From assembly GCF_017115095.1 (NCBI RefSeq), contig NZ_JABXKI010000099.1, positions 1 through 46,536 of the forward strand: DNA of 46,536 nucleotides, written 5' to 3'. Of this stretch, positions 36,786 to 46,493 are shown piece by piece; position 1 is the first letter of the stretch; every line of letters starts with the position of its first letter. Made by a program: the position numbers and the translations under genes. Origin of the DNA: Nostoc sp. NMS4 (GTDB lineage Bacteria; Cyanobacteriota; Cyanobacteriia; Cyanobacteriales; Nostocaceae). The notes below the pieces were generated by a model. It was given only the letters and a program-made list of their open reading frames with translations, had not been told where the DNA came from and searched no databases.

Positions 36786-39700
36786 ATGAATGAATTTCAA
36801 GTCAATACTTACACCACTGGCAATCAATCTAACTCCACAGTAGCGATAGATACAGATGGGGATTTTGTCATTTCCTGGCAAAGCAATGGTCAGGACACTT
36901 CTGGCTTGGGGATATATGCCCAACGCTACAACAGTGCTGGGGTAGCTGTTGGGAATGAATTCAAAGTCAATACCAACACCAACAACGATCAAACGAACCC
37001 CACAGTAGCGATAGATGCTACTGGGGACTTTGTTATTTCCTGGCAAAGCCAAGATGCGTCTGGTCTTGGGATATATGCCCAACGCTACAACAGTGCTGGG
37101 GTAGCTGTTGGGAGCGAATTTCAGGTCAATACCTCCACCAACAACAATCAAGTTAACCCCACAGTAGCGATGGATGCCGATGGGGACTTTGTTATTTCCT
37201 GGCAAAGCAGTGGTCAGGACGGATCTAGCTATGGGGTATATGCCCAACGCTACAACAATGCTGGAGTAGCTATTGGGGCTGAATTTCAGGTCAATACCCA
37301 CACTGAAAGCTCTCAATATAACCCCACAGTAGCGATAGATGCCACAGGGGACTTTGTTATTTCCTGGCAAAGCTATTATCAGGATGGGTCTTACTTGGGT
37401 ATATATGCCCAACGCTACAACAGTGCTGGGGTGGCTCAAGGGGCTGAATTTCAGGTCAATACCTATACTAACGGCTATCAATATAATCCCACGGTAGCAA
37501 TGGATAGCACTGGGGACTTTGTAATTTCCTGGCAAAGCTATGGTCAGGACGGATCTGGGAATGGCATATATGCCCAACGTTACAACAGTTCTGGGGTAGC
37601 TCAAGGGGCTGAATTCAAAGTCAATACCCAGACTAACAGCTCTCAATATAACCCCACAGCAGCGATGGATGCAGATGGGGACTTTATCATTTCCTGGACT
37701 AGCGATGGTCAGGATGGATCTGCGGATGGCATATATGCCCAACGCTACAACAGTTCTGGGGTAGCTATTGGGGGCGAATTTAAGGTCAATACCTACACCA
37801 ACAACTCTCAAAGTAACTCCACAGTAGCGATAGATGCCACTGGAGACTTTGTAATTTCCTGGACTAGCGATGGTCAGGATGGATCTGCGGATGGTATATA
37901 TGCCCAACTAAACAGCAATAGTGGGGTTCCCCCGACAATCACCTCTGGTTCTGCTTCTGCCCTGACATACACTGAGAATGCCACTACAGCTATTGATTCA
38001 GGCATCACCGTCAGCGATACAGACTCCCCCAACCTAGCTAGTGCCACCGTCAGCATTACCAGTGGTTTCGCCTCTGCTCAAGACACCCTCGCCTTCACCA
38101 ACCAAAATGGGATTACGGGTAGCTACAACAGCAGCACAGGTGTTTTAACGTTAACTGGCAGTTCCACGGTTGCTAACTATCAAACCGCACTGCGTTCCAT
38201 TACTTATAACAACAGCAGTGATAACCCCAGCACTACACCTCGTACCGTCAGCTTTGTTGTTAATGATGGGACTGCTAATAGTACCGTCGTTACCCGCAAT
38301 ATTAATATTACGGCGGTGAATGATGCGCCCGTTGCTACTGCTACTAATTCTGCTTTAGCATACACAGAGAATGCTACTACAGTCATTGACTCAGGCATCA
38401 CCGTCAGCGATGTAGACTCCTCTAACCTGGCTAGTGCTACTGTCAGTATTACCAGTGGTTTTGCCTCTGCTCAAGACATCCTCGCCTTTACCAACCAAAA
38501 TGGGATTACGGGTAGCTACAACCCCAACACAGGTGTTTTAACTTTAAATGGTAGTGCTACCGTTGCTAATTATCAAACTGCACTGCGTTCTGTTACTTAT
38601 ACCAATAGCAGTGACAACCCCAATACTACACCTCGTACTGTCAGCTTTGTCGTTAATGATGGGACTGGTAATAGTACTGCCGTTACCCGCAATATTAATA
38701 TTACGGCGGTGAATGATGCCCCAGTCCTTGCCAACCCCATTAGTGACAAAATAGCGACAGAAGACACCCCCTTCAGTTTCGCCTTACCAGCTAACACCTT
38801 CACGGATGTGGATGCCGCAGGTAGCCTCACCTACAGCGCTACTCTGGAAAATGGTAATCCAATTCCCAGTTGGTTGATCTTCAACGGCACGACCTTCAGT
38901 GGTACTCCCACAAATGACAATGTTGGTAGCCTCAACATCAAAGTTACCGCCAGTGATGGAACGGCAACTGTCAGCGATATTTTTGCTCTGACAGTACTTA
39001 ATACCAATGATGCGCCCGTCGCTGTTAACGACAGCATCACCACAAACAAAAATACACCTATTGTCATTAGTACTAGTACTCTGTTGAAAAATGATACAGA
39101 TGTGGATGTTAGTGACATCTTGAGCATTACTAGCTTCACTCAACCTAGTCAAGGAAGCTTAGTCAATAATGGTAATAGTACTTACACCTATACACCTGTC
39201 GAAAACTATTATGGCTCCGACGGCTTCACTTACACCATAAGTGATGGGCATGGAGGCAGTAGCACTGCTACTGTCAACTTGACCATTAATCAACCTACTA
39301 ATGTGTTTACTGGTACTTCAGGTATAGACAACCTGACTGGTACGGTGAATATGGATATCATTTCTGGATTACAAAGCAATGACACGCTCAAAGGACTAGG
39401 TGATAACGACACCCTTGATGGCGGCGATGGAAATGATTTCTTAGATGGTGGTACAGGAAATGACAGTCTGATCGGTGGGGCGGGCAATGACACCTATGCC
39501 GTGGACAATATCAGCGACACTATTACTGAATCCGCCAATGCTGGCACAGATTTAGTTAATTCTTCGGTGAGTTGGGTCTTGGGAAATAACTTGGAGAACT
39601 TGACCCTGACTGGAAGCTCGGCAATCAATGGTACTGGTAACAGCCTGAATAACATCTTGATTGGAAATACTGCCGCTAACATCTTGAGTGGAGAAAATGG

Positions 39701-41096
39701 CAATGACAACCTCTTTGGTGATTCCGGCAATGACACCCTTAATGGTGGTGCAGGTAATGACACCTTGGATGGAGGTCTGGGATCTGACAGTCTCAATGGT
39801 GGGGCTGGCAATGATACTTACACCATAGACAACCTGAACGATACGATTACTGAAGGCTTAAATGCAGGTACAGATTTAGTGAAGTCTTCGGTAACTTGGG
39901 TGTTGACAGATAACCTGGAGAATTTGACCCTGACTGGAACTGGGGCAATCAATGGTACTGGTAATAGCCTTAAGAACATCTTGACTGGAAATACTGCTGC
40001 TAACATCTTGAGCGGAGAAGATGGGAATGATAGCCTGATTGGTGGTACAGGCAATGACACCTTGTTAGGCGGTGCGGGCGATGACACCTTGGATGGAGGT
40101 GTAGGGGTTGACAATCTTGATGGTGGAGTCGGCAATGACATTTATACTGTGGACAACCTCAGCGATGCGATTACTGAATCGGCCAATGGTGGCACAGATT
40201 TAGTTAAGTCTTCGGTAACTTGGGTGTTGGCAAATAACCTGGAGAACCTTACCCTGACTGGAAGCTCGGCAATCAATGGTACTGGTAACAGCCTTAATAA
40301 CATCTTGATTGGAAATGGTGGCGCTAACACCTTGAAAGCAGAAGATGGGAATGATAGCCTGGTTGGTGGTACTGGCAATGACACCTTGTTAGGCGGTGCG
40401 GGTGATGACACCTTGGATGGAGGTGCGGGAGTTGACAATCTTGATGGTGGAGTTGGCAATGACATTTACACTGTAGACAACCTCAACGATACGATTGTTG
40501 AAGGCGTAGATGCAGGTACAGATTTAGTCAAGTCTTCGGTGAGTTGGGTGTTGGGAAATAACCTGGAGAACTTGACTTTAAGTGGAACCGGGATAATCAA
40601 TGGTACTGGTAACAGCTTCTATAACATCCTGACAGGAAATAATGCTGCTAACACATTAACAGGAGGAGATGGTAACGATAGCCTCTTTGGGAACTCAGGC
40701 AATGACACCTTACTCGGTGGTACAGGTGATGATTTACTAGTTGGTGGAGTTGGTCGAGATGTGCTGACTGGTGGAATTGGGCAAGACAGCTTCAACTTAA
40801 CTGGTAGCCGTACTGGAGGCTATGATACGATCGCTGATTTTACTCTTGGAGATGATACTATCTTGATTTCCAAAGCTGAATTCGCGCTGGTTCAATCTCA
40901 GAATACGACGCTCGATTCGGGCTTATTTCGACTTGGTACTAGTGCGATCGCAGGAGGCGATCGCTTTATCTACGATCAAACTACGGGTAATCTTTTCTTT
41001 GACGCAGATGGCACTGGTAAGGCTGCACAAGTTCAAATCGCTCAGTTCTCGAATCAGGCAATGCTCACTAATGTAAATATTACTGTCATTGCCTAA
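36786..41096 (+). CDS. Giant RTX/adhesin-like protein with Ca-binding repeats
   Basis: 1436 residues, no N-terminal signal peptide; AGAGG 7-11 bases upstream sets the ATG. Seven tandem ~55-residue units come first (residues 3-380; consensus EFQVNT...[16 protein letters not shown], then [12 protein letters not shown]). Two ~125-residue cadherin/Ig-like units follow (~380-640, [17 protein letters not shown]), then an Ig-like CADG domain (~645-745) and a VCBS-like unit (~745-840). Four ~108-residue blocks come next (~845-1310), each with hemolysin-type GGxGxDxLxGG calcium repeats and a W-V[12 protein letters not shown] segment. A terminal domain ([16 protein letters not shown] to the end) resembles C-terminal type I secretion regions. 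It should be exported by a type I system and fold with calcium outside the cell. No T1SS genes are in the window. Confidence 0.9.
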
Positions 41097-41164: not shown

Positions 41165-41540
41165 TTGTCATAAATACACATCTAAGTGCAACACAACTGC
41201 CAACTTTTAGGGACTTCCGCAGTTTATATTTTTTCCATCGCGCACGATGCCGTTCGCGGAGCGTCTCGTAGAGAAGGCGGGCTACGCACGCAAAATCCAA
41301 AACTACAACTCATTACGAAGGTTCGTCGAGCATCAACGTTCTATGGGACTACTTAAGGCAGTGCGTCAGCGACACCGACCTAACACCGCAAGGTCTCTTG
41401 ACATCTGGGCTGACGCTTTAACTTGACACCAATGGCAAGATGCCCACCCCACAATCTTGGATAATTTATTTCTTGGAGTTCCCTCAACTCAGTCTCTATA
41501 TATTCACAAAGAAGGTTTTCTCCCCAGATGCCCATTGATT
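41165..41540. other. Upstream region of the transporter operon
   Basis: It contains a nested dispersed repeat (CGTTCGCGGAGCGTCTCGTA region, ~41250-41290) and no gene. AGATGCCCA occurs twice, at 41438-41446 and 41526-41534. Activator sites for the sigma-54 promoter would be expected in this stretch, but I cannot define them. Confidence 0.5.
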
Positions 41541-41556
41541 TGGCACGATTTTTGCA
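41541..41556 (+). promoter_or_regulatory. Sigma-54 type -24/-12 promoter
   Basis: TGGCACG-ATTT-TTGCA is an exact match to the sigma-54 consensus TGGCAC(G)-N4-TTGC(A/T), with GG at 41542-41543, GC at 41554-41555 and exactly 10 bases between them. It points at the transporter operon. Transcription would begin about 41567, giving a ~39-base leader before ATG 41606. The sigma-54 gene is 3 kb away in the same window. Confidence 0.8.
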
Positions 41557-41605: not shown

Positions 41606-42874
41606 ATGCAAAAACAGCGAAAACCGAGTGAGAAGAGTTTGCGATCGCTTGATTACTTGAATGTCTTTCTCGCAGATGTGCGCGATGGTGTTGGGCCATA
41701 TCTGAGTATTTACCTGAAAGCTTCAGCAAATTGGAACCCTGCTCAAATTGGATTGGCGATGTCAGCTTCGGCAATTGCCACAGTTATCGCCCAAACACCA
41801 GCTGGTGCATTGGTTGACAGGCTACGTCAAAAACGAATGTTGATTGTACTGGCGGCGGTGTTTGTTTCTATCGGCTGTATTGCTATCGGCTTATTCCCCA
41901 ATTTGCCTGTTGTGATTGGCTCTCAGATTATGATTGGGATTGCAGCAGCAATTTTTCCACCTGCGATTACTGCTATTACTCTGGGACTTGTAGGACATGA
42001 GAGATTAGATAGGCGGGTAGGTCGTAATGAAACATTTAACCATGCCGGAAATCTGCTAGCTGCAACTCTCGCTGGTTTAGCAGGTTACTTTATTGCACGT
42101 AAGGCAATATTTTTCCTGGTTGCAGCTATGGCCGTGGGCAGTATTATTTCAGTGAGGATGATTCGTGAAAGAGAGATTGACCACGAATTAGCGCGTGGAG
42201 ACGGTGAAGAGGGGGAAGAAGAAGATAATGAAAAACATCAACAGCGCTATGAAGGCATATTGGAATTATTAAGCGATCGCCCAATCTTATTTTTTACTGT
42301 CGCAGTCGTTCTGTTTCACTTTGCCAATGCTGCCATGTTACCGCTAGTTGGTCAAGAATTGGCACAGGGTAAAGGGACAAGTGACACAGTTTATATGTCT
42401 GCTTGTATCATTGTGGCTCAGTTAGTCATGATTCCGGTATCCAATTTGGCTGGACGTTTCGCAAATACAGCCCGAAAACCCATATTTTTGCTGGGCTTTG
42501 CCGTCTTACCGATTCGAGGAGTGCTGTATACGCTTTCGGACAATCCCTATTTTCTCGTTTCTGTGCAAATTCTGGATGGTATTGCAGGCGGGATTTTTGG
42601 TGTGCTTTCGGTGTTGATGGTAGCTGATTTGACTAAAGGCACGGGACGCTTTAATGTTACCCAAGGGATGCTCAACACTGCCATTGGTGTTGGTGCGGGT
42701 TTGAGCAACGTGTTGGCTGGGTTTGTAGTTAAAAGTGCTGGTTACAATGTTGGTTTTTTGATTTTAGCAGCGATTGCAGTTGTGGCTTTAGCAGTTTTTT
42801 GGTTCTGTGTACCTGAAACAAAAACAGGAGTTAATAGAAAAGCATCACATCAAAAGCATTTAGCGAAATCATGA
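41606..42874 (+). CDS. MFS transporter, first gene of a sigma-54-type operon
   Basis: 422 residues, about twelve transmembrane helices. MFS loop motifs are AGALVDRLRQKRML after helix 2 and LAGRFANTARKP after helix 8. A cytoplasmic central loop (~190-215) is very acidic (ARGDGEEGEEEDNE). The C-terminal helices are followed by a basic tail. Its stop overlaps the start of the permease gene (ATGA at 42871-42874), so the two are translationally coupled and probably share a task. Substrate is not evident. The only promoter I see is the -24/-12 element 50 bases upstream. Confidence 0.87.
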   Translation: MQKQRKPSEKSLRSLDYLNVFLADVRDGVGPYLSIYLKASANWNPAQIGLAMSASAIATVIAQTPAGALVDRLRQKRMLIVLAAVFVSIGCIAIGLFPNLPVVIGSQIMIGIAAAIFPPAITAITLGLVGHERLDRRVGRNETFNHAGNLLAATLAGLAGYFIARKAIFFLVAAMAVGSIISVRMIREREIDHELARGDGEEGEEEDNEKHQQRYEGILELLSDRPILFFTVAVVLFHFANAAMLPLVGQELAQGKGTSDTVYMSACIIVAQLVMIPVSNLAGRFANTARKPIFLLGFAVLPIRGVLYTLSDNPYFLVSVQILDGIAGGIFGVLSVLMVADLTKGTGRFNVTQGMLNTAIGVGAGLSNVLAGFVVKSAGYNVGFLILAAIAVVALAVFWFCVPETKTGVNRKASHQKHLAKS

Positions 42875-44283: not shown

Positions 44284-44366
44284 TTCAGGCTCAAAGCCGC
44301 AACGTTCAAGCTCAAAGGTGCAACGTTCAGGCTAAAAGGCTCAACGTTCAGGTTCAAAGGCTCAAC
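44284..44366. repeat. 21-bp tandem repeat, four units
   Basis: Four head-to-tail units: TTCAGGCTCAAAGCCGCAACG and variants start at 44284, 44305, 44326 and 44347, the last one 20 bases. It runs into the 3' end of rpoN. There are no spacers, so it is not a CRISPR. Confidence 0.85.
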
Positions 44367-44937
44367 TTTGATATTTCAAGAGACTTCCTTGCTTCCTGCT
44401 CTTGCTTCCCATCTTTTTATCAGTCAACTTGCGGTGATGTGATGACTTTATCCCGGAAATTTTACGGTATTTTGTAACTGTTCTGCGAGTGATTGGCAGA
44501 CAAAATCGGATTTTCAAAAGCTGGGCTAATTGCTCATCAGTATAAGGATTGGCGGGTGATTCTTCTGCAATTAACTGTAATAGCATCTGTTGGATTTGTT
44601 GAGGAGTACGCCCGCCTACTCCGACAGGAACACATAGAGAATGCAACGGAATTATCCGACTGTTTTGGTTACAAACTAATATATATCGTCCCCGCACAAT
44701 CCGGCTGATTGTAGAGTTACTAAGTCCCACCGATTGAGCTATTAATTGCTGAGGGGTAGAAATTAAGTCTAATTTATCCCGACTCTGCAAAAAAGCTTGC
44801 TGGCGCTCAACTAAAAATTGACCAACTTTGAGCAGATTTTCTTGCCATTGTTGCAATGCTGTGAGTAAATTTCTAGCTTTTTGTAATAATGCTTCTAGTT
44901 GTTGGGTATCTCGCCTTGATTTTGGTGATTCCTGCAA
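44362..44937 (-). CDS. rpoN: Sigma-54 DNA-binding part with RpoN box
   Basis: 191 residues from the first Met; the frame is open further upstream to about 45075 and carries native sequence there. QQWQENLLKVGQFLVERQQAF and STPQQLIAQSVGLSNSTISR (HTH) align with the sigma-54 C-terminal domain (VEQQQAFF, and the ESTISRV helix). The RpoN box is ITRRTVTKYRKISGI, against consensus ARRTVAKYRE. The box recognises the -24 element. The ~30-residue basic tail after it overlaps the 21-bp tandem repeats only at its last codons. Free translation from this Met is unlikely to give a working factor. Confidence 0.85.
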   Translation of the reverse strand: MQESPKSRRDTQQLEALLQKARNLLTALQQWQENLLKVGQFLVERQQAFLQSRDKLDLISTPQQLIAQSVGLSNSTISRIVRGRYILVCNQNSRIIPLHSLCVPVGVGGRTPQQIQQMLLQLIAEESPANPYTDEQLAQLLKIRFCLPITRRTVTKYRKISGIKSSHHRKLTDKKMGSKSRKQGSLLKYQS

Positions 44938-45026
44938 AAGTTTAATGGCTTCGGAATTCAGACAAAAACGTTGTTTGATTTCATAGGCTAAAGAAATTTC
45001 CCAACTTCCAGCTATTAGCTCAACTT

Positions 45027-45758
45027 TTAAATCAGGGGTGACGATGTGAGCATTACTACCACCGAAGTTTCTGGCGGACGTGGTTCTAATTCTTGAATTT
45101 CATGAATAGCATCGGTGATTTTATCGATATCAATATTTTGATGGTTTTGATGCAGCTTTTGTAATAGTAGTTGACAATTGTGTTTTGCTTCGGAAGTGTT
45201 ACCAATACAATTTGGTATGTCTTCTAAATAATTTTTAATTAGTAGAAAAGCTAGGCTTTCAGGCTGGTCTTTTAGTTGTACTAACAGACATTCTCGCAGG
45301 GAGCGAGTACCAATTCCAGGTGGATCTAAAGTTTGGAGGATAGGCACTACAGCCTCTAGTTCTTTTGGACTCCATATACTACCATCTGCCCAAATTTCTG
45401 GAGTTTCTTCTAAGTAACCGGAGTTGGATAACCACTGAGTTAGATAGGTTAAGGCTTGACGTTGTTTTGATGGGATTGATAAAGCTGATATTTGTCCGAG
45501 AAGATGTTCGCTTAGGCTTAATTCCTGGGCGATGGGATTGTACCAATTAGGTTTGATATCGTCTAAAAGTGCTTCGCTGTTATGGAAATCAGAGTTTTCT
45601 ATTATAAATGGATTGTGTTTAGATTCTTCTCGAAGATGGTCGAATACTCGTTTTCCATCCCACGGTAAGAAGCGAACTAAGTACTGTAGGGTTGGGTAAA
45701 TAACGGTTTGAGTTTCTAGGTGTGTTTCTAGTGTAGATGTTGAGTTTAAGGAATTCAT
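45027..45758 (-). CDS. rpoN: Sigma-54 N-terminal and core-binding part
   Basis: 243 residues as read. Region I (~12-55, LETHLETQTVIYPTLQYLV...LREESKHNPF) corresponds to the activator-interacting segment of RpoN, here with more aromatic and charged residues than the usual Gln/Leu-rich form. The core-binding region (~85-225) has LPTLDPPG-type sequence: ILQTLDPPGIGTRSLRECLL, followed by LLIKNYLEDIPN and the turn IQELEPRPP. The last ~16 residues (from PETSVVV) are out of frame and not native. There is no good ribosome site before the ATG. Confidence 0.82.
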   Translation of the reverse strand: MNSLNSTSTLETHLETQTVIYPTLQYLVRFLPWDGKRVFDHLREESKHNPFIIENSDFHNSEALLDDIKPNWYNPIAQELSLSEHLLGQISALSIPSKQRQALTYLTQWLSNSGYLEETPEIWADGSIWSPKELEAVVPILQTLDPPGIGTRSLRECLLVQLKDQPESLAFLLIKNYLEDIPNCIGNTSEAKHNCQLLLQKLHQNHQNIDIDKITDAIHEIQELEPRPPETSVVVMLTSSPLI

Positions 45759-45901: not shown

Positions 45902-46061
45902 CTATGCGATTAAAATCACAGCCAACGACTTTTCAAACAACCTTTAAGAGCGCAAAGGAAAGAAAGACTTAACTGGATTAAATTAGGAGTTATGAATAGC
46001 TTTGTCAAGATTAAATGATATGGTTAGCAGAGCATGGGAATGAGACTTGGAAAGTATTGTG

Positions 46062-46493
46062 CTATAAATTCCATTGTTTCTTTTTTTGCTCAAGGCTTTC
46101 GGCGGAAATTCCTAATGCTTTGTGGGGTTGTTGGGGATAAAGTGCTAAAGCATGGCGGATAAAGTTTATTTCTAACTGAGCGATCGCTTGTTCTAAGTTC
46201 AAATTTATCTGATGTTCTTGATTAAAAATTAGATGCTCTGGAAGAATGGTTCTTCCTCCAGAAAAAATTGCTGCTCTCTCTAAAGTATTTTGCAGTTCTC
46301 GGACATTTCCAGGCCAAGGGTAATCTCTCAGTTTTTCTAGGGCGGTTGAGGTAATTGCTAAGTTTTTAATTCCGTTTCTTAGAGCAATAGAACTGAGAAA
46401 ATGTTGGGTAAGTTGTTCTAAATCTTCGGGGCGATCGCGCAAAGGTGGCAGTTCAATTCGTACTACGTTAAAGCGATAGTAACAGTAAACCAA
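46062..46493 (-). CDS. Sigma-54-dependent activator (bEBP), C-terminal fragment
   Basis: 143 residues from a TTG, certainly not the native start. The sequence YYRFNVVRIELPPLRDRPEDLEQLTQHF and YPWPGNVRELQNTLERAAIFSGG is the end of an NtrC-type AAA+ domain (sensor II region), and LEQAIAQLEINFIRHALALY leads into a short Fis-like helix (ALGISAESLEQKKKQW) that looks shortened compared with usual Fis domains. Walker A and GAFTGA would lie beyond the window. Just upstream, at ~46515, this frame meets a TAG inside repeat-like sequence (GTGTGCGTAGCGATCGCCC), so the gene may be interrupted. It is oriented towards rpoN. GCGATCGC sites inside it indicate long residence in a cyanobacterial genome. Confidence 0.8.
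   Translation of the reverse strand: MVYCYYRFNVVRIELPPLRDRPEDLEQLTQHFLSSIALRNGIKNLAITSTALEKLRDYPWPGNVRELQNTLERAAIFSGGRTILPEHLIFNQEHQINLNLEQAIAQLEINFIRHALALYPQQPHKALGISAESLEQKKKQWNL

Follow-up and report, generated by a model that had tools for sequence, protein, structure and literature searches.

Whether a cyanobacterium can house a sigma-54 promoter, together with the sigma factor (RpoN) and the activator that would serve it, is the question raised by a contig of Nostoc sp. NMS4. Sigma-54 is given as absent from 29 cyanobacterial strains in a passage of a 2011 paper (PMC3162934), and passages of later papers state that cyanobacteria have no specialised sigma-54 for the regulation of nitrogen metabolism (PMC10120043, 2023) and so far sigma-70 genes only (PMC11119718, 2024). 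A table of PMC2758279 lists no RpoN for its cyanobacteria, and a statement in PMC4284476 has no RpoN known for cyanobacterial nitrogen regulation. A single sentence of PMC12316311 (2025) names rpoN in Gloeocapsa sp. PCC 7428 and Leptolyngbya sp. O-77, and a cyanobacterial rpoN is thus common to that paper and the present analysis; the passage concerned names the two genes, while operon, activator, promoters, regulon and presence in Nostocaceae do not appear in it. Among the matches listed in the literature on sigma-54 or rpoN in cyanobacteria, Nostoc and Gloeocapsa, no description of the module reported below was found.

The DNA analysed, hereafter the window, is the entire 46,536-base contig C9 of a genome of 7.58 Mb in 440 contigs (G, L and C numbers are our handles for genomes, loci and contigs). 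An earlier note on this DNA, silent on the cyanobacterial host from which the finding draws its interest, had described an exact -24/-12 element about 50 bases ahead of a coupled transporter pair, and had read it with a nearby rpoN and activator as a self-contained regulon. The sigma-54-type promoter TTGGCACGATTTTTGCA lies at 41540..41556 on the + strand, matches the consensus exactly and is kept in relatives. Its core TGGCACGATTTTTGCA (TGGCACG-ATTT-TTGCA, 41541-41556, + strand) carries GG at 41542-41543 and GC at 41554-41555 with 10 bases between them, the spacing that marks a sigma-54 promoter sequence inside TTGGCACG-N4-TTGCA, which bears out the described match and spacing. The gap to the ATG of the transporter gene at 41606 measures 49 bases, in the right orientation. 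This gene encodes a 422-aa major facilitator superfamily (MFS) transporter (PF07690, 41606..42874, +), and its stop codon overlaps the beginning of the neighbouring gene (42871-42874), a 394-aa ArsB/CitMHS-type anion transporter (PF03600, 42871..44055, +), so that the pair is indeed coupled. The nearest solved relatives of the two transporters are NorA-type and ArsB/VcINDY-type proteins, which hints at the export of toxic compounds or anions. Upstream of the promoter lies a 1,436-aa repetitive ORF (36786-41096), whose repeats resemble calcium-binding RTX repeats by eye.

A string of this kind might arise by chance, with no link to sigma-54. When the whole window was scanned, TGGCACNNNNNTTGC occurred exactly once in 46,536 bases, in agreement with the earlier remark that no second match had been seen, and at up to two mismatches it gave 43 matches against 39.3 expected. 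Such low-stringency matches are at chance level, as a chance origin would have it, and only the exact site stands out in the window. On a matrix derived from 29 intergenic sigma-54 sites of Salmonella, taken from passages of PMC3844500, the element scored 23.3 bits (training maximum 23.5 bits; leave-one-out range 13.8 to 22.8), while the second-best window position reached 13.6. First-order Markov resampling of the window, repeated 200 times, never attained 23.3 bits. Moreover, orthologs in many genomes have the same element at a comparable distance, even though the sequence upstream of it has diverged. Chance resemblance was therefore rejected on matrix score, resampling and ortholog conservation, and is left with next to no probability.

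The same promoter type recurs around related genes. In total, 24 loci comprising 454,727 bases contained 64 sites agreeing with at least 11 of 13 consensus positions: 19 sites at 13/13, where 20 resamples gave none, 18 at 12/13 against 1.2 expected, and 27 at 11/13 against 13.5 expected, which is just twice chance. The 19 perfect sites without exception, and 16 of 18 with a 12/13 match (35 of 37 together), were located within 200 bases 5' of a gene for an MFS transporter, an OB-like protein, a histidine kinase or a small proline-rich protein. Sigma-54-like promoters thus precede the transporter operon, the divergent OB-like gene and the kinase, the last with an element of at least 11/13 in only 8 of 19 kinase-bearing loci. 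Across Nostocaceae, TTGGCAYNNTTTTTGCA was present in 20 of 23 genomes matching PF04552, the RpoN DNA-binding domain, versus 26 of 194 others (Fisher p 7e-13). Counted by hand, strict-pattern sites numbered 44 in the PF04552 genomes, where the reversed control gave 3, and 28 in the others, where it gave 21. The strict pattern was absent from G122, which has a variant only, downstream of rpoN.

Some lineages carry further genes behind such elements. In genomes of genera g32 and g69, the gene for a 147-aa YdcZ-type exporter (L104:1312-1887, with PF04657 tested in L104; further loci L100, L103, L108, L109 and L110) has an element 118-119 bases upstream. In three lineages, sigma-54-like elements also precede genes for small proline-rich proteins whose N-termini look like those of secreted proteins (L048:5084-5595, L049:13097, L051:10246, L102:5028, L182:2682, L183:12278 and L184:12509). 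Their elements are found in g32, in G122, where the gene is cut at the contig end, and at 11/13 in three g232 genomes; neither of the two proteins scanned had a Pfam match.

The genes expected to serve these promoters are distributed patchily. PF04552 matches were found in 23 of 217 Nostocaceae genomes and a full-length RpoN frame in 19 of 217, or 19 of 22 PF04552 genomes once G143 is left out; rpoN is broken or partial in the window's genome (G000), G003 and G168, and G029, outside the 23, has the N-terminal half only. The activator accompanies every full-length RpoN (19/19 genomes), and its AAA+ domain at 76% identity or more is confined to 22 genomes, all 22 with rpoN or a remnant. The usual order is a divergent OB-like gene, kinase, activator and rpoN, with the transporter pair close by in many genomes, although the activator is apart from rpoN in G011 and G203. 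Five genomes from two families outside Nostocaceae have a kinase-activator-rpoN operon, also with elements. These five were among the 10 of 388 genomes matched by an order-wide RpoN profile search and had been missed by the draw for a class-wide PF04552 search (388 genomes), in which G000, G168 and G332 (a 38-column match) exceeded the cut-off and G051, G394 and G380 matched more weakly. The window's genus is spread across several RpoN lineages, and the closest rpoN carriers are Nostoc sp. PA-18-2419, NMS7, JL34 and N. calcicola FACHB-3891.

Contamination from other bacteria would offer a trivial explanation for rpoN in these assemblies. The rpoN contig of G143 (L053, G143:C25) has 73% GC and looks like a contaminant, and the 49% activator of G028 sits on a contig poor in HIP1 sites (L187, G028:C307). 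HIP1 sites are a cyanobacterial hallmark, and together with the Nostoc carriers of the closest rpoN they mark the window's host as a Nostoc-like cyanobacterium. The 11 other rpoN loci with computed composition, by contrast, have 41-47% GC and 0.35-1.61 HIP1 sites per kb, and several rpoN loci lie on multi-megabase contigs, one of them in a one-contig genome. Contamination was accordingly rejected except for G143 and probably G028, and as an account of the cluster as a whole its probability is practically nil.

The module may be inherited as a unit. Distances for RpoN, activator, kinase and OB-like protein show correlations of 0.90-0.95, none of 500 permutations reaching any of these values, as joint inheritance predicts; common descent with the host alone could also explain them. 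A single pattern scan of viral contigs, able to detect close relatives only, gave no match. RpoN has 212 matching plasmid records, none of which reaches 60% identity (the best-ranked is at 30.4%), leaving no close donor among them.

The proteins themselves have recognisable sigma-54 features. RpoN of L016 matches PF04963 with 131 bits and PF04552 with 102 bits (cut-offs 22.9 and 22.8), and the RpoN box [AT]RRTV.KYR is present in 18 of 19 aligned copies, L051 having ARRTIAKYR. A profile match to solved sigma-54 chains in the PDB reached E 1e-45, and region I aligned weakly (10 bits), as a separate segment, to E. coli residues 7-55. In the RpoN scanned, region I had no Pfam match and all NCBIfam rpoN models stayed under cut-off (best 230.7 vs 277.35). 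The activator of relatives consists of a receiver, an AAA+ domain with Walker A and an intact GAFTGA, and a lid; one clade ends after the lid at 388-393 aa (408 aa in L017), and the other has a shortened degenerate tail, for 439-441 aa. For the activator scanned, the best NCBIfam relatives are NtrC and AtoC, both under cut-off. Scans of two full activators and of the window fragment showed no Pfam helix-turn-helix, such as a Fis-type C-terminal one. The OB-like protein had no match in Pfam or NCBIfam, and its label is our reading of the protein sequence.

An activator of this build raises the matter of enhancers, motifs for which were sought by eye and by column identity only. At nine Nostoc MFS loci, mean column identity falls from 0.97 in the element to 0.60 over the stretch 5-40 bases upstream of it and 0.42 over 40-100 bases, and is 0.92 in the 19 bases downstream, so no conserved distal enhancer is apparent there. 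With no recognisable DNA-binding domain in the activator and no conservation far upstream of the MFS genes, the activator probably acts from solution. At the OB-like promoters, about eight bases directly upstream of the element look conserved by eye, and the activator may contact the DNA there. These bases, together with the kinase promoters found in 8 of 19 loci, weaken the enhancer-free and the self-regulating parts of the proposal.

The state of the module in the window's own strain is another matter. Convergent with the transporter pair, rpoN (-, 44362-45758) is 92% identical to the gene of G005 and carries a one-base shift near codon 230, which leaves two overlapping frames instead of an intact one: 45027..45758 (-) encodes the N-terminal region and most of the PF04963 core-binding domain, and 44362..45099 (-) the PF04552 DNA-binding domain with the RpoN box TRRTVTKYR. 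Beyond it, about the last 420 bp of an NtrC-type activator gene remain (46062..46482, -; 432-bp DNA match 46051-46482), encoding the AAA+ lid and a degenerate tail. Activator homology ends at a 55-base repeat that closes the contig (46482..46536, -); these 55 bases are identical to one end of a stretch read from contig C284 and recur as partial copies on five further contigs. A 5.5-kb query running from the OB-like gene to rpoN returned from the window's genome rpoN and the 432-bp match, among the matches listed, and kinase, OB-like gene and remaining activator were not found among them in the 98.7% complete assembly. Thus rpoN and an activator are both near the promoter, as the earlier note had it, the former in two frames and the latter as a 3' fragment.

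These defects could in principle be artefacts, with the frameshift a sequencing error and the activator and kinase lost in assembly gaps, so that the module would still be active in the strain. The contig is a draft that closes on a repeat, and the shift, a single base within a short run of C, could be an error of sequencing. In addition, dN/dS of the rpoN pieces (0.16-0.37) resembles that of intact pairs (0.25-0.33), indicating that any decay is very recent, or that the frameshift alone is possibly an error. The truncation of the activator is better supported than the frameshift: the first 3.59 kb of the query (OB-like gene, kinase and activator front) gave short dispersed-repeat matches only, among the matches listed. 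The cluster is truncated in other ways in the relatives G003, G168 and G029, which makes its loss a common event in this group. An active module in this strain is accordingly unlikely. As the sequence reads, the sigma-54 circuit is broken in the window's genome and the element there is most likely a relic; the self-contained regulon thus holds for relatives and fails in the strain for which it was proposed, with its frameshifted rpoN, roughly 420 bp of activator and no kinase found.

The site might instead be used by a sigma-70-type polymerase, at least in strains that have lost rpoN. A sigma-70-like match of 9/12 (TTGGCA-17-TATTGT) overlaps the element, and the 19 bases downstream of the element are almost as conserved as the element itself at the nine Nostoc loci. 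The MFS genes bear on this directly. From 42 matches, 32 were examined together; nine more, chiefly fragments or second copies, were left out. The element stands ahead of 22 of the 32: where rpoN is full-length, 16 of 20 have it, as do all 3 in remnant genomes and 3 of 9 in genomes that lack rpoN. The earlier note had tied the element to rpoN in relatives, and had counted its conservation in strains lacking rpoN against its own reading. Among rpoN-less genomes whose MFS genes are 70-93% identical, such conservation is seen in three of six, which partly goes against the note: G172, G009 and G222 keep the element, as use by sigma-70 would allow, and G020, G079 and G082 (a broken frame with uncertain start) lack it. 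The distant MFS genes of G018, G136 and G139 (about 50% identity, no rpoN) lack it as well. The aligned string of G020 is TTTGTCACGATTTTTATA, with both GG and GC gone, yet the -10-like part and the leader are kept, which argues against the sigma-70 reading. Sigma-70-like matches occur in the region at chance frequency (19 found, 19.6 expected), and distant lineages share, by eye, the -24/-12 string only. Use of the site by sigma-70 is therefore distinctly unlikely. Second copies add variety: the module-side MFS copy of G006, outside the 32, has its element 205 bases before the start, and in genus g32 the module-side MFS gene has no element and a second MFS copy has one in two of three genomes. 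A second MFS copy of G006 (L149, G006:C1:5782840-5784099), about 90-92% identical to the window's group, is without the element.

Taken with the relatives, the element is very probably a genuine promoter of a dedicated cyanobacterial sigma-54 module, the window's copy being a relic or under other control, and its predicted tie to rpoN and the activator is strongly supported by the comparison. From the genes, domains, co-occurrence, conserved promoter matches and strain damage described above, we infer phosphorylation, activation, transcription and a role in export or the envelope. In relatives with an intact module, a membrane histidine kinase would phosphorylate the receiver-AAA+ activator, whose GAFTGA loop would remodel RNA polymerase bound to the RpoN encoded next door and waiting at TTGGCA[CT]-type -24/-12 sites. 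Putative targets are the exporter pair of MFS and ArsB/CitMHS type and the divergently encoded, membrane-anchored OB-like protein, joined in part of the genomes by the kinase-activator-rpoN operon and in certain lineages by the YdcZ exporter or small proline-rich proteins. Working from solution, the activator would leave specificity to the promoter, and in the window's strain the circuit would have been broken recently.

Such a circuit resembles NtrB/NtrC-RpoN (group 1: AtoC, ZraR, NtrC) in having a histidine kinase, a receiver-AAA+ GAFTGA activator, RpoN and -24/-12 promoters. It differs from that system in its cyanobacterial host, in an activator with no recognised Fis-type DNA-binding domain, in the single operon that usually encodes kinase, activator and RpoN, and in targets that resemble exporters and envelope proteins rather than nitrogen genes. 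Activators without a DNA-binding domain are described, in the passages concerned, for FlgR and Chlamydia CtcC (PMC7175178, PMC7482065). One cyanobacterial clade is like this group 5 in having receiver and AAA+ and nothing past the lid, whereas the second retains the shortened degenerate tail; also unlike group 5, rpoN usually lies in the operon of the activator, and no link to flagella or development was seen. The intact module is most likely a two-component sigma-54 switch for export and envelope genes with an enhancer-free activator. That a subset of cyanobacteria possesses a minimal one-activator operon circuit, enhancer-free, governing a small exporter and surface regulon defined by -24/-12 sites, inherited as a unit, patchy and being lost near the window's strain, is a proposal that we favour with some reserve.

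The presence of the full module in 19 of 217 Nostocaceae genomes would revise the view of cyanobacteria as organisms without sigma-54, since about twenty related cyanobacteria retain sensor, activator, sigma factor and matching promoters. It would present close strains at different stages of losing a sigma-factor regulon and, with exact promoters supplied that are testable in named strains, would offer a small natural system for the study of sigma-54 activation, perhaps free of enhancers.
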